From Vulcanimicrobium alpinum (GTDB taxonomy: Bacteria > Vulcanimicrobiota > Vulcanimicrobiia > Vulcanimicrobiales > Vulcanimicrobiaceae), in contig NZ_AP025523.1 in assembly GCF_027923555.1 (NCBI RefSeq), positions 1,054,001 through 1,118,000 of the forward strand: a DNA stretch of 64,000 nucleotides. The letters are read 5' to 3'. Made by a program: the position numbers and the translations under genes. The notes beneath the pieces are model-generated. The model saw only the letters and a program-made list of their open reading frames with translations. It was not told where the DNA came from and ran no database searches. This document shows positions 38,405-42,055 of the stretch, piece by piece. How positions within the stretch are numbered: position 1 is the first letter of the stretch; the number at the start of each line of letters is the position of its first letter.

Positions 38405-39616
38405 ATGATCGGACTGGCCTACACCGACACGCGCGGACGCATCTATTTCGACGAGACGCGCTCGCCGCTCGCCGACGCCGGGATCGAACGCGCGGCGCTG
38501 CGCGAGGAACTGATCCCCGCCCCGCCCGGGACCGTCACGGCGATGCTCCCCGGCCGCGCGCCGCTGCTCGCCGGCGGACGGACCGCGAGCCGCCGGACCG
38601 CGCTCTCGGCGCTGCTTCCCGCCGGCTACACGCGGCTGCTGCTCCCGGCGTATCGACACGGCGCCGAGGCGCCGCCGCTGCCGCTCTTCGGCTACACGTT
38701 TGCCTGCGTCGTCGACGACGAGCTCCACGTCGCCGCGATGCGCACCGATGAGAGCGAAAATTGGACGCCGCGCTACTTCGCGGAGGGCGAACTCGAGCGA
38801 ATTCTCGCGCGCCGGCAAGCCGACGATCCGCAAAACCGGACGCTGGCCCAGCTTGCGCTCTGTTCGCGCGACTACGGCTGCTTTACGGCGCAGAACGTCT
38901 TTCTCGACCGCGGCGAAGCAGCGTTGCCCGTCTCGCCGAAGTGCAATGCCGCGTGCGTTGGCTGCATCTCGGAGCTCGCGCCGGAGGCCGGAATGCCGTC
39001 GCCGCAGAGGCGCGTCGCCTTCGATGCCGATCCCGACGACATCGCCCGGATCGCGATCCGCCATCTCGAGCGCGTCCCCGACGGGATCGTCTCGTTCGGG
39101 CAAGGCTGTGAGGGCGAACCGCTCCTGCGGGTGACGACGATCGAGCGCGCGATCGCGAAGATCCGCGCGGTCCGCGCCAACGGCACGATCAACCTCAACA
39201 CGAACGGTTCGCTGCCCAAGAGCCTCGCGCGTCTGATCGACGCAGGCCTGCAGGCCGTCCGCGTCAGCCTCAACTCGGTGCGCGCCCAACCGTACGCGGC
39301 CTATTACCGGCCGACGGGCTACGATATCGAGGACGTGCTCTCGTCGGTCGCGCTCGCGGTCGATCGCGGCCTGCGCGTCTCGCTGAATTACCTGACGCAT
39401 CCGGGCGTGACGGACGAGCGCGCCGAGGCCGACGCACTCGAAGCGTTCCTGCGTGCCCATCCCGTCGCGCTCGTCCAAACGCGCACGCTGAACATCGATC
39501 CCGAGCGCTACTTCGCCGCCGTCGGCCGGCCGCGCGAGCCGATCGGGATGCGCGAAGCGCTTGCGCGGATCGAACGTCTGGGGATTTCGCTCGGCAACTT
39601 CACGCACACGCACTAA
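38405..39616 (+). CDS. Radical SAM protein of unknown substrate
   Basis: 403 residues. C180, C184 and C187 form the CxxxCxxC cluster motif (KCNAACVGC). Downstream are the glycine-rich SAM segment FGQGCEGEPLL, the NTNGS strand and VRVSLNSV, as in SPASM-less radical SAM barrels. The N-terminal ~165 residues form an extra domain I do not recognise, with a further Cys pair near 153 and 159. The reaction is unknown. It lies right after dapF, and its stop codon overlaps that of the convergent GDPH-motif gene (CTAA). Confidence 0.85.
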   Translation: MIGLAYTDTRGRIYFDETRSPLADAGIERAALREELIPAPPGTVTAMLPGRAPLLAGGRTASRRTALSALLPAGYTRLLLPAYRHGAEAPPLPLFGYTFACVVDDELHVAAMRTDESENWTPRYFAEGELERILARRQADDPQNRTLAQLALCSRDYGCFTAQNVFLDRGEAALPVSPKCNAACVGCISELAPEAGMPSPQRRVAFDADPDDIARIAIRHLERVPDGIVSFGQGCEGEPLLRVTTIERAIAKIRAVRANGTINLNTNGSLPKSLARLIDAGLQAVRVSLNSVRAQPYAAYYRPTGYDIEDVLSSVALAVDRGLRVSLNYLTHPGVTDERAEADALEAFLRAHPVALVQTRTLNIDPERYFAAVGRPREPIGMREALARIERLGISLGNFTHTH

Positions 39617-40458
39617 GCCTGCGCGGGACGGCGATGGTGACCGCCGTGGTGCGGGCGGCCCTGCTCGACGACGTCGCCGCCGATCCCGAGCTGATGTGCG
39701 TGCGTCGTCACGTCGACGCCCGCGCCATTCGCCCGCAGCGTCGTGCTGATCGTGCCGCCGGAGTCGTTCGCGGCGCTCACGACGAGCGAACCGTCCTGAT
39801 TTTCGGTGACCGTCTCGCCGCCGCCGAGGGTGACGCTCGCGCCTTTCTCGATGCCGATCTGCTCGCCGCCGCTCACGATCGCGACGCTGCCGTCGTTGCG
39901 CATCGTCACGCAGTCGAAGCCGCCCCCGGCGTGCACCGTTGCGGCGCGATTGTACGTCACGCCGTTCGCGTCCGACTGCGTCACCGCGGTGGAGACGCGA
40001 TAGCCGCCGGCGACGGCGTTCGTTTCCACCAAATCGTCGTGCGAGGCCATGCTGTCGAAGTGCTGGTCGACGTTCTGCGTCCCCGCCGGCGTCCGGATCG
40101 TGCCGGTCTGCGCGAGGTGCGGGTCGCCGGTCGAACTGATGTCGACGTCGCCGGCCTGCTCGGCGGCATGAAACGGCGACGGCGCCGTCGTGCCGCCGCT
40201 CTGCGCGCCCGCAGCGAACGTGCCGACGACCTGCTGCAGCACCGCGAGGATCAGCTGAAGCACGCCGAACACCGTGCCGGCGTTGTTCGCGCCGCCCTGC
40301 GAGAGCGCGTTGCCGATCGGAGACCACCACGGCGTCGCGACGCCGTCGGCGGCCGGCGCGGCCGTCGTGCTGCGCGCCGGCGGCGCCTCATCGGGGAAAC
40401 CGTATCTCTGCGGCACGAAGGGTCCCGCGATCCCCGGCCATTGCGGACTGTTCATCAT
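39613..40458 (-). CDS. Hypothetical protein with a GDPH motif and His-rich tail
   Basis: 281 residues from ATG 40458, which has AGGAG upstream; earlier in-frame ATGs lack this. Layout: Pro/Ala-rich start, a hydrophobic stretch near 60-83 (GTVFGVLQLILAVLQQVV), then STGDPHLAQTGT with GDPH at 111-114. A Gly/Asn/Asp-rich beta-type repeat region follows, and the protein ends in a His/Gly-rich tail. GDPH is the self-cleavage site of von Willebrand D-type and DUF1521 autoproteolytic domains, cut between Asp and Pro. Whether it cleaves here is unknown. No conventional signal peptide is seen. I do not recognise the family overall. Confidence 0.7.
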   Translation of the reverse strand: MMNSPQWPGIAGPFVPQRYGFPDEAPPARSTTAAPAADGVATPWWSPIGNALSQGGANNAGTVFGVLQLILAVLQQVVGTFAAGAQSGGTTAPSPFHAAEQAGDVDISSTGDPHLAQTGTIRTPAGTQNVDQHFDSMASHDDLVETNAVAGGYRVSTAVTQSDANGVTYNRAATVHAGGGFDCVTMRNDGSVAIVSGGEQIGIEKGASVTLGGGETVTENQDGSLVVSAANDSGGTISTTLRANGAGVDVTTHAHQLGIGGDVVEQGRPHHGGHHRRPAQA

Positions 40459-40532
40459 CGCTGCGCGTCGTCTCCTGAGTGAGGGTGTGCACCCCTCCAT
40501 CACGACGACGCGCCGGCGCGGCTAGTCTCCGG

Positions 40533-41207
40533 TCAGCCCACCAAGGCGGCGCAGACGTCGGAGCGCGTGTCGCGCTTGATCATAGCGATCACGTCGTCGC
40601 CGCGCTGCAGCGTCGTGTCGCCGTTGGGGACGACCACGTCGCCGCCGCCCCGATCGACCGCGACGATCACGCTCCCGCGCGGGAGCGAGACCTCGGCGAT
40701 CCGCTTGCCGCGCGCCGGGCTGTCCTCGGCGATCCGCAGCTGCACCAGTTCCAGATCGCCGTGGCCGACGCGCGCGAGCGGTTCGAGGTGCGCGGCGTTC
40801 ACGTTCACCCGCTCGTCGATCATCTCGAGGATGATCTCGGTCGACGAGATCACGGTGACGGGCCGATCGGCGTCGAGCGACTCGAAGATCAGTTTGTTCT
40901 TCGGGTTGTTGACGCGCGCGATACAGCGCGCCGACGAGTGTTTCTTAGTGATGATGCAGACGACGAGGTTGTCTTCGTCGTCGCCGGTGTCGGCGACCAC
41001 GACGTCGGCGCGCTGGACGCCCGCCTGCAGGAGGATGTTCGGATCGCAGCCGTCGCCGACGATCGCGATGTCGGTTTCGAGCAGGTTCGTCATCATCTGC
41101 GCTTTGCGCGCGTCCTTTTCGATGACGACGACTTCGTGCTGCTGCTTGATGAGGCCGCGCGCAAGATAGGTGCCGACCTTGCCGCCGCCGACGATCAGGA
41201 TGAACAC
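40533..41207 (-). CDS. TrkA-type NAD-binding K+ transport regulator (RCK domain), copy 2
   Basis: 224 residues. The Rossmann motif ILIVGGGKVGTYLARGL is at the start, with the acidic residue binding the ribose in VVVIEKD. A TrkA-C domain follows (LVQLRIAEDSPARGKRIAEVSLPRGSVIVAV). These proteins gate Trk/Ktr potassium channels in response to NAD(H) or cyclic di-AMP. It starts one base after the stop of the similar gene to its right, forming a two-gene operon with no transporter subunit in the window. Confidence 0.9.
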   Translation of the reverse strand: MFILIVGGGKVGTYLARGLIKQQHEVVVIEKDARKAQMMTNLLETDIAIVGDGCDPNILLQAGVQRADVVVADTGDDEDNLVVCIITKKHSSARCIARVNNPKNKLIFESLDADRPVTVISSTEIILEMIDERVNVNAAHLEPLARVGHGDLELVQLRIAEDSPARGKRIAEVSLPRGSVIVAVDRGGGDVVVPNGDTTLQRGDDVIAMIKRDTRSDVCAALVG

Positions 41208-41208
41208 G

Positions 41209-41883
41209 TCAGGCGGTCAGTCGAGCTTCCGGGCGCGCCGACGAGAATGCCGCTGCAAACTGGGTGAGCGCTTCGGGCGAGACGATCGCGTTGATCTCGT
41301 CGCCTTCGACCAGGACGTCGCCGGGCGAGGCGACGCTGACGCTGCCGAGCCGCCGGATCGCGGCGATGCGGATCTTTCCGTCCATCTCGACGAGGTCGAC
41401 GCGCTTGCCGGCCTGCGCCCGCGTGACCGTCGCGACGAGCGACGAGAGTTTGCCGAAATCGAAGGTGGGGACGCTGGCGTACGCGACGTCCTGCAGGCGG
41501 TCACGGATCGTCTGCGCGCCGATCGTCGTCGGCGAGAACGTCTCGATCCCGAGCTCGCGATAGAGCTGGCCGCGCGGCGGATCGTAGATGCGCGCGACGA
41601 TCTTGGGGATCCGGAACATCTTCTGGGCGATGAGCGCTGCCATCACGTTGCGATTGTCGCCGTCGGTGACGGCGACGAAGCCGTCAGCCCGCTCGGCGCC
41701 CGCCCGCTTGAGCACGTCGTAGTCGATGCCGGTGCCGACTTCGACCTGGCCGCCGAACCGGTTCCCCAGCCGTTTGAACGCGGCGGGATTCTCGTCCACG
41801 ACGACGACGTCGTGCTTGTCGGCGACGAGCAGCTTGGCGAGGGTCGACCCTACGCGCCCGCATCCGACGATCAGATATCTCAT
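41209..41883 (-). CDS. TrkA-type NAD-binding K+ transport regulator (RCK domain), copy 1
   Basis: 224 residues, the same length as its partner. The N-terminal motif is MRYLIVGCGRVGSTLAKLLV, with VVVVDENPAAF as the ribose-binding strand. The C-terminal TrkA-C domain includes RIAAIRRLGSVSVASPGDVLVEGDEI. Paired RCK proteins of this kind often act together as heteromers on a TrkH/TrkG subunit. It is the first gene of the two-gene minus-strand operon and lies 95 bases from tRNA-Pro. Confidence 0.9.
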   Translation of the reverse strand: MRYLIVGCGRVGSTLAKLLVADKHDVVVVDENPAAFKRLGNRFGGQVEVGTGIDYDVLKRAGAERADGFVAVTDGDNRNVMAALIAQKMFRIPKIVARIYDPPRGQLYRELGIETFSPTTIGAQTIRDRLQDVAYASVPTFDFGKLSSLVATVTRAQAGKRVDLVEMDGKIRIAAIRRLGSVSVASPGDVLVEGDEINAIVSPEALTQFAAAFSSARPEARLTA

Positions 41884-41978: not shown

Positions 41979-42055
41979 CGGGGCGTAGCTCAGCTTGGTA
42001 GAGCGCTGCGTTCGGGACGCAGAGGTCACAGGTTCAAATCCTGCCGCCCCGACCA
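41979..42055 (+). tRNA. tRNA-Pro (anticodon CGG), CCA encoded
   Basis: A full 77-base cloverleaf: acceptor arms CGGGGCG and CGCCCCG, D-arm GCTC-AGCTTGGTA-GAGC, anticodon stem CTGCG/CGCAG enclosing TTCGGGA with CGG at 42013-42015, T-arm ACAGG-TTCAAAT-CCTGC, then A-CCA. The outermost T-stem pair is A-C, the only mismatch. Confidence 0.97.

Follow-up and report, generated by a model that had tools for sequence, protein, structure and literature searches.

Most work on VWD-type cleavage at the motif GDPH has dealt with large animal proteins rich in disulfides. Domains bearing this motif are found in FCGBP (D10), RGMB, MUC2 (D4) and MUC4. In FCGBP, cleavage is stopped by replacement of the Asp of the motif with Ala or Asn, or of its His with Asn, and in simulations a cis Gly-Asp bond brings the Asp side chain close to the carbonyl of the same residue (PMC10880436). 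Mutation of FCGBP residue Q4094 partly affects the reaction. Strand 1 of the FCGBP domain is held by a disulfide, and cleavage could mean loss of this strand where such a bond is absent; the GDPH of MUC2 remained intact in the cells that supplied material for the MUC2 structure, and, according to the same 2024 paper, no pair of cut and uncut structures exists for any system with GDPH (PMC10880436). The motif also occurs in the heavy-chain beta-sandwich of ITIH, whose predicted topology is described as VWD-like although databases do not call it VWD (PMC10880436). ITIH is a different protein, animal and secreted, and is likened here by description, not by structure.

Among bacterial proteins, the DUF1521 (MIIA) group, represented by NopE1, NopE2 and VIC_001052, likewise combines GDPH with an acidic domain. 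The MIIA domain folds on Ca2+, and the structural features of DUF1521 were called unexplored in 2019 (PMC6506597). The FrpC-type self-processing module (SPM) of RTX proteins is a further bacterial example of autocatalytic Asp-Pro cleavage; its fold is reported as novel and as binding four Ca2+, “GDPH” does not appear in the text of that report as available to us, and the likeness is again one of description only (PMC7078468).

The window, i.e. the whole stretch of 64,000 nucleotides analyzed here (G+C content of 68.5%), is part of the Vulcanimicrobium alpinum genome, a single contig of 3,508,363 bases. An earlier note, made from the letters of this DNA, had proposed that it encodes a GDPH-motif protein that may cleave itself. 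The ORF in question (39613..40458, minus strand) proved to be real; it encodes a protein of 281 aa that contains the sequence STGDPHLAQTG, with G111, D112, P113 and H114 at positions 40117–40128. The gene has an ATG at 40458, a second ATG at 40455 and a TAG stop codon at 39613–39615. Its start at 40458 is backed by the sequence AGGAG (40472..40476, minus strand), a probable ribosome-binding site placed 13 nt upstream of the first ATG, and a simple scan found no sigma-70-type promoter for the gene. The surroundings described in the note were also confirmed: the gene converges on a radical SAM gene (38405..39616, plus strand; PF04055, E 1.8e-17), the two stop codons overlapping, and is preceded by a pair of TrkA-type genes (40533–41207 and 41209–41883, minus strand), both with Pfam TrkA_N matches (E 3.7e-28 and 1.7e-27, respectively). 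A gene for tRNA-Pro (CGG) is located at 41979–42055 (plus strand), divergent from the TrkA pair.

Database comparisons gave no Pfam or NCBIfam match for the window protein at E values up to 1, and no convincing one for 30 family members (the most common was an Ig-like family, listed for 8/30 with a best E of 0.0064). The family is unannotated, as judged from these sequence searches. Homologs were sought with the whole protein in a set of 60 genomes of relatives, and matches were obtained in 30 of them (own genome included): 30/37 genomes of the bacterial family to which the window belongs (f1) and 0/23 outside it. A profile search of 149 Eremiobacterota genomes yielded matches in 79 (again with the window’s own), namely in 77/99 genomes of f1 and in 2/50 elsewhere, the latter at 53–59 bits. 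A scan of a large genome collection with the single window protein gave no match; a GDPH-keyed scan of the same kind, covering 84,980 species, identified 31 loci; for 30 of these, the record title names Eremiobacterota, Eremiobacteria, WPS-2 or just a “bacterium”. These 31 loci are motif-biased, GDPH being part of the search pattern, and were therefore excluded from all conservation counts. As far as such a motif-keyed scan can show, the family seems confined to a single phylum. One of the GDPH-keyed loci (L059) lies in a record titled Rhodospirillales; the label is probably wrong, and the locus is likely to correspond to contig C293 of genome G024, which is placed in f1.

An origin from a phage or plasmid was considered and rejected: no relatives were found in phages, plasmids or viral contigs by tblastn with one sequence and a motif-pattern scan of viral sequences, searches that distant relatives could escape. 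PADLOC reported nothing, the best PHROGs match of the GDPH protein had an E value of only 0.088, and none of the viral proteins compared by Foldseek matched at E ≤0.001.

Analysis of the gene neighborhoods revealed that the radical SAM gene adjoins the GDPH gene in all seven other loci of the window’s genus, and the TrkA pair in six of these seven; neither was found in 29 loci outside the genus (several with short flanks). The neighbors are a case of genus-level synteny and not evidence of a functional link, and maturation by the radical SAM protein or a connection with K+/TrkA was rejected on this ground. Among the 31 GDPH-keyed loci, a release-factor gene is adjacent in 21, and a secA-like gene is located nearby in 13, all within those 21; the remaining 10 loci, 6 of them from the window’s genus, have neither. 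One example of each neighbor was checked against Pfam, the release factor having PCRF and RF-1 domains and the secA-like protein SecA domains. The release-factor gene is presumably prfB.

Lack of GDPH conservation in homologs had been named in the earlier note as a finding that would speak against its proposal. The opposite was observed: the motif is present in 30/30 loci from the whole-protein search (the window’s own and 29 others) and in 81 of the 82 distinct genes that were read, own included. The count of 82 omits the weak match G031:C54 (E 4.1e-5, model positions 47–151) and a 22-residue front piece in genome G085. The sole gene lacking GDPH, in G085, is the rear part of a gene that has been split, and the motif is present in the front half. 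Even the two remote members from outside f1, L093 and L094, have retained it. For comparison, the composition of the window protein predicts 0.005 GDPH per protein of its size by chance. In the 81 genes, Gly is encoded by GGC (70), GGA (7), GGG (3) or GGT (1), Asp by GAT (65) or GAC (16), Pro by CCG (57), CCT (10), CCC (8) or CCA (6), and His by CAC (50) or CAT (31). Synonymous codon changes thus occur at all four positions, and therefore selection acts on the protein. A Ser residue is found two positions ahead of the Gly in 78/81 cases, and several other residues of the domain are conserved as strongly as GDPH.

The split gene of G085 (contig 1) is interrupted just after GDPH, and its two pieces (184033–184098 and 297668–298096; L166 and L167) are separated by approximately 113 kb. 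The front half adjoins a release-factor gene, and the rear half a gene with Resolvase and Recombinase domains, of the large serine recombinase type. This arrangement looks like the insertion of a large integrative element into the GDPH gene. The two ends share just a 7-base match, possibly by chance.

The structure of the window protein was predicted with AlphaFold2 without templates, from its sequence together with those of 30 relatives, and the core domain was also modeled alone. In the full model, the region from residue 100 to about 262 (39673..40161, minus strand) forms a beta fold with pLDDT values mostly above 90, and of 89 in the block 111–120 that holds GDPH; the core domain alone reached a pLDDT of 93.7 and a pTM of 0.90. 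According to DSSP, the motif (residues 111–114; 40117..40128) is placed in a turn between strand 1 (residues 100–110; 40129..40161), which lies ahead of the predicted cut, and strand 2 (residues 114–123). The D112/P113 bond, at which the cut is predicted, corresponds to the junction between positions 40123 and 40122.

Comparison of the models with the PDB using Foldseek identified 16 chains at E ≤0.001, all of them from mucins, VWF or FCGBP, in the runs with both the full and the core model, with moderate TM-scores (0.45–0.60 by query length in the top 16 rows obtained with the core model). VIA-align gave a consistent picture, with VWD structures in the top rows; the best match was MUC5AC (Z 14.7, rmsd 2.7 Å, 145 residues), and others included MUC2 (Z 14.3, rmsd 2.8, 145 residues), RGMB (Z 13.1, rmsd 3.1, 137 residues) and FCGBP D10 (Z 10.8, rmsd 2.5, 131 residues). 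With the full model, the Z values then fall from 10.2 to 5.0; with the core model they run from 14.6 down to 9.5, followed by 5.1. Two high-scoring VIA-align rows are not titled VWD, namely Cypridina luciferase (24ne) and a Tettigonia pigment (9kue). In many of the matched VWD structures, the assembly contains no cut GDPH.

The predicted site was also found to be in register with the FCGBP cleavage site. P113 of the window protein is the residue at which the alignment begins for each of the RGMB chains 4bq8_C and 4ui2_D and for FCGBP chain 8qci_B. Residue 169 of the RGMB chain is, we assume, the Pro that follows the RGMB cut. The start residue in chain 8qci_B, 4081, is P4081, directly after the cut residue D4080 (PMC10880436). 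Both FCGBP residues needed for cleavage, Asp and His, are kept in the family, and the predicted fold resembles those of the FCGBP, RGMB and mucin structures compared.

At the level of sequence, no such relationship was detected. The profile search for VWD or DUF1521 that the earlier note had suggested as a check gave no matches: PF00094 (VWD) was found neither in the window protein nor in 30 members at E values up to 10 (with HMMER filters on), and profile searches of the PDB matched no VWD chain. A PF00094 scan of the 149 genomes of the phylum also gave none, which, with no positive control, adds little. Searches of the PDB by profile and with the single sequence gave no convincing relative; the best profile hits, 9gtr (VgrG-like, E 0.009) and 3myx (cupin-like, E 0.01), align over parts that exclude GDPH. 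The family further differs from the VWD proteins in being bacterial, in having few or no Cys residues and no disulfide network, and in the absence of recognized partner domains and of a visible signal peptide. The models nevertheless make it very probable that the domain has a VWD-like fold. Of the two domain types named in the earlier note, VWD is favored by predicted fold, motif position and conservation, and DUF1521 finds no support in the sequence.

The number of Cys residues per domain is 0 in 49/81, 1 in 29/81, 2 in 2/81 and 3 in 1/81 cases, and conserved VWD cysteines or disulfides were absent from these 81 domains. On the basis of the models, the domain is probably a VWD-like, cysteine-poor one with a predicted self-cut at Asp112-Pro113. 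It is acidic in the window protein, with 20 D/E versus 6 K/R. Ahead of it, the N-terminal region (residues 1–62; 40273..40458) is predicted to be disordered, the mean pLDDT being 43–52 per ten residues up to residue 60, and no signal peptide is visible by eye. It is followed by a Leu-rich hydrophobic or amphipathic helix (residues 63–82; 40213..40272) modeled with moderate confidence (block means of 64–70), the full model having no other helix of at least four residues. This helix carries no charge and is hydrophobic (mean hydropathy of 1.9 over 19 residues). Hydrophobic, mostly Leu-rich stretches precede GDPH in the 30 family proteins compared, whose best hydropathy windows range from 0.57 to 1.9 (own protein included). 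A role of this helix in membrane contact or self-assembly is a guess. The His-rich tail reported in the earlier note is indeed present (residues 263–281; 39616..39672); inspection of the alignment by eye showed it in 7/10 members of the window’s genus, but not family-wide, many members from other genera having Pro-rich tails and some having none.

The family, the conservation of its GDPH, the predicted fold and the motif register are direct results of the computation. Their best explanation appears to be a two-part protein in which a flexible arm at the N-terminus, bearing a Leu-rich amphipathic helix, is followed by a VWD-like domain and a short tail; the domain would cut itself at Asp112-Pro113, and the helix-bearing piece could be released. 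By analogy with FCGBP, self-cleavage of the window protein is considered fairly likely, and the complete reading just slightly less so. The same reaction is proposed because the same four residues occupy the same turn as in FCGBP: folding would strain the Gly-Asp-Pro turn, the side chain of Asp112 would attack the carbonyl of the same residue, and no protease would be needed to break the Asp112-Pro113 bond, as proposed for FCGBP. The expected products are residues 1–112 (disordered arm, Leu-rich helix and strand 1) and 113–281. Most domains of the family having no Cys or a single one, no disulfide would hold strand 1 and a covalent tether is unlikely; piece 1–112 would be held non-covalently after the cut and could be released. 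It is less certain that the cut is a maturation step of a protein exported from the cytoplasm with no signal peptide.

The same fold could also be adopted by a protein that is not cut, with GDPH kept as a tight turn and its His serving as a structural residue or metal ligand. Such a reading agrees with the uncleaved D assemblies of known structure, with the uncut GDPH in the MUC2 structure sample (PMC10880436) and with the equally strong conservation of several other residues of the domain. For a turn, however, Gly and Pro are required, whereas there is little need for precisely Asp and His; these two are unchanged in 81/82 genes and kept even in the two remote members at 53–59 bits. We consider an uncut domain unlikely. 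Cleavage could alternatively be followed by linkage, the Asp freed at the cut being joined to a lysine through an isopeptide bond, as happens in the FrpC-type self-processing modules. The Asp-Pro chemistry is the same, and an activated Asp intermediate has been described for the SPM, but the domain of the window protein is poor in basic residues, as counted above, and the fold of the SPM is described as novel (PMC7078468). This outcome is considered very improbable.

The question of whether the protein is instead a divergent member of DUF1521 (PF07481) proper was addressed by profile comparisons. In favor of membership are the GDPH motif, the similar overall architecture and a slight similarity of the profiles behind the motif: in an alignment anchored after GDPH, the observed score was reached by 11/500 column permutations, a weak hint. 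On the other hand, PF07481 was not among the families listed for 30 members at E values up to 10 (the HMMER filters drop most matches above approximately 0.1), it has no match in the window’s genome, and hhalign aligned the GDPH family with PF07481 at a probability of just 8.4% and not in the GDPH register. The profile works in this phylum, because DUF1521 proteins of the same phylum match it: PF07481 matches were detected in 10/149 genomes (9 above the cut-off), all of them outside f1. Membership in DUF1521 is thus regarded as very unlikely.

The two families are nonetheless comparable in their N-terminal parts. The 15 DUF1521 proteins read from these genomes contain GDPH, and their N-terminal regions are mostly Gly-, Met- or Leu-rich, similar to those of the GDPH family. 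Moreover, one N-terminal module is common to L093, the remote member from genome G136, and L106, a DUF1521 protein of genome G064 (PF07481, E 2e-8), with 41% identity over 111 aa (70.9 bits). To judge from this one pair of sequences, two GDPH domain families can follow the same N-terminal module. The module, of about 110 aa, has no Pfam match; the two genes are located at L093:6007–6882 and L106:1291–2151.

The shared module also bears on a further alternative, that the protein belongs to another sequence family but works like NopE1 and VIC_001052, as a type III secreted protein whose self-cleavage is triggered by metal. Consistent with this are the absence of a signal peptide as judged by eye, the disordered N-terminus of low charge, GDPH itself, the acidic domain, recalling the acidic MIIA domain that folds on Ca2+ (PMC6506597), and the flagellar-type export genes of the window’s genome. 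The latter form a cluster at about 2790000–2812200 of contig 1 (L103, L104 and L120), in which one FHIPEP gene lies near matches to FlhB/YscU, FliR, FliP, FliN, an export ATPase (T3SS_ATPase_C) and FliF, together with a FliG-like piece just below the cut-off. Vulcanimicrobium is reported to lack flagella and a flagellin gene (PMC9758169), and this probably flagella-less organism has kept genes matching a flagellar-type export apparatus.

The distribution of the GDPH gene lends this alternative no support. With FHIPEP (FlhA/SctV; E ≤0.001) as the single export marker, the 99 genomes of f1, some of which are incomplete, comprise 70 with both the GDPH gene and FHIPEP, 19 with FHIPEP only, 7 with the GDPH gene only and 3 with neither, i.e. 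there is no association (Fisher p 0.69). Genome G034, 98% complete in 8 contigs, has a GDPH gene and no FHIPEP match, and the GDPH gene was not seen beside export genes in the loci examined. Secretion of the NopE1 kind is a possible but rather doubtful reading of this protein. As for DUF1521 itself, it tracks FHIPEP-rich genomes, being present in 10/13 genomes with at least 5 FHIPEP matches and in 0/136 others, a pattern confounded by descent. The 13 FHIPEP-rich genomes are G057, G064, G067, G068 and G132–G140, several of them with at least 7 matches.

A broader interpretation can be put forward tentatively, and is on balance improbable. The self-cleaving VWD-type fold with GDPH might be a widespread protein switch and not an animal invention, the Eremiobacterota family being its cysteine-poor branch and DUF1521/MIIA of plant symbionts and vibrios another branch that acquires the same fold once metal binds. 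In this phylum, the switch would serve leaderless exported proteins, cut after export so that the piece with the Leu-rich helix is freed from the beta cap.

A bacterial GDPH family with a VWD fold was not encountered in the literature on GDPH/DUF1521, bacterial VWD and Eremiobacterota, as covered in part through titles and the beginnings of abstracts, which is a weak indication of novelty. The protein is small and unnamed, and its host phylum is barely cultured. If the proposed reading is true, the small size and low cysteine content of this bacterial domain would make it easier to express and mutate, and to crystallize in its cut and uncut forms; a structural hypothesis would become available for DUF1521, and a first testable activity could be assigned to a protein that has been retained by most members of its bacterial family, which is known mostly from metagenomes.

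Finally, one short contig (contig 107 of G111; L095) contains two adjacent copies of the GDPH gene, accompanied by a reading frame of 128 aa with a similar N-terminal motif (DSIQSS).
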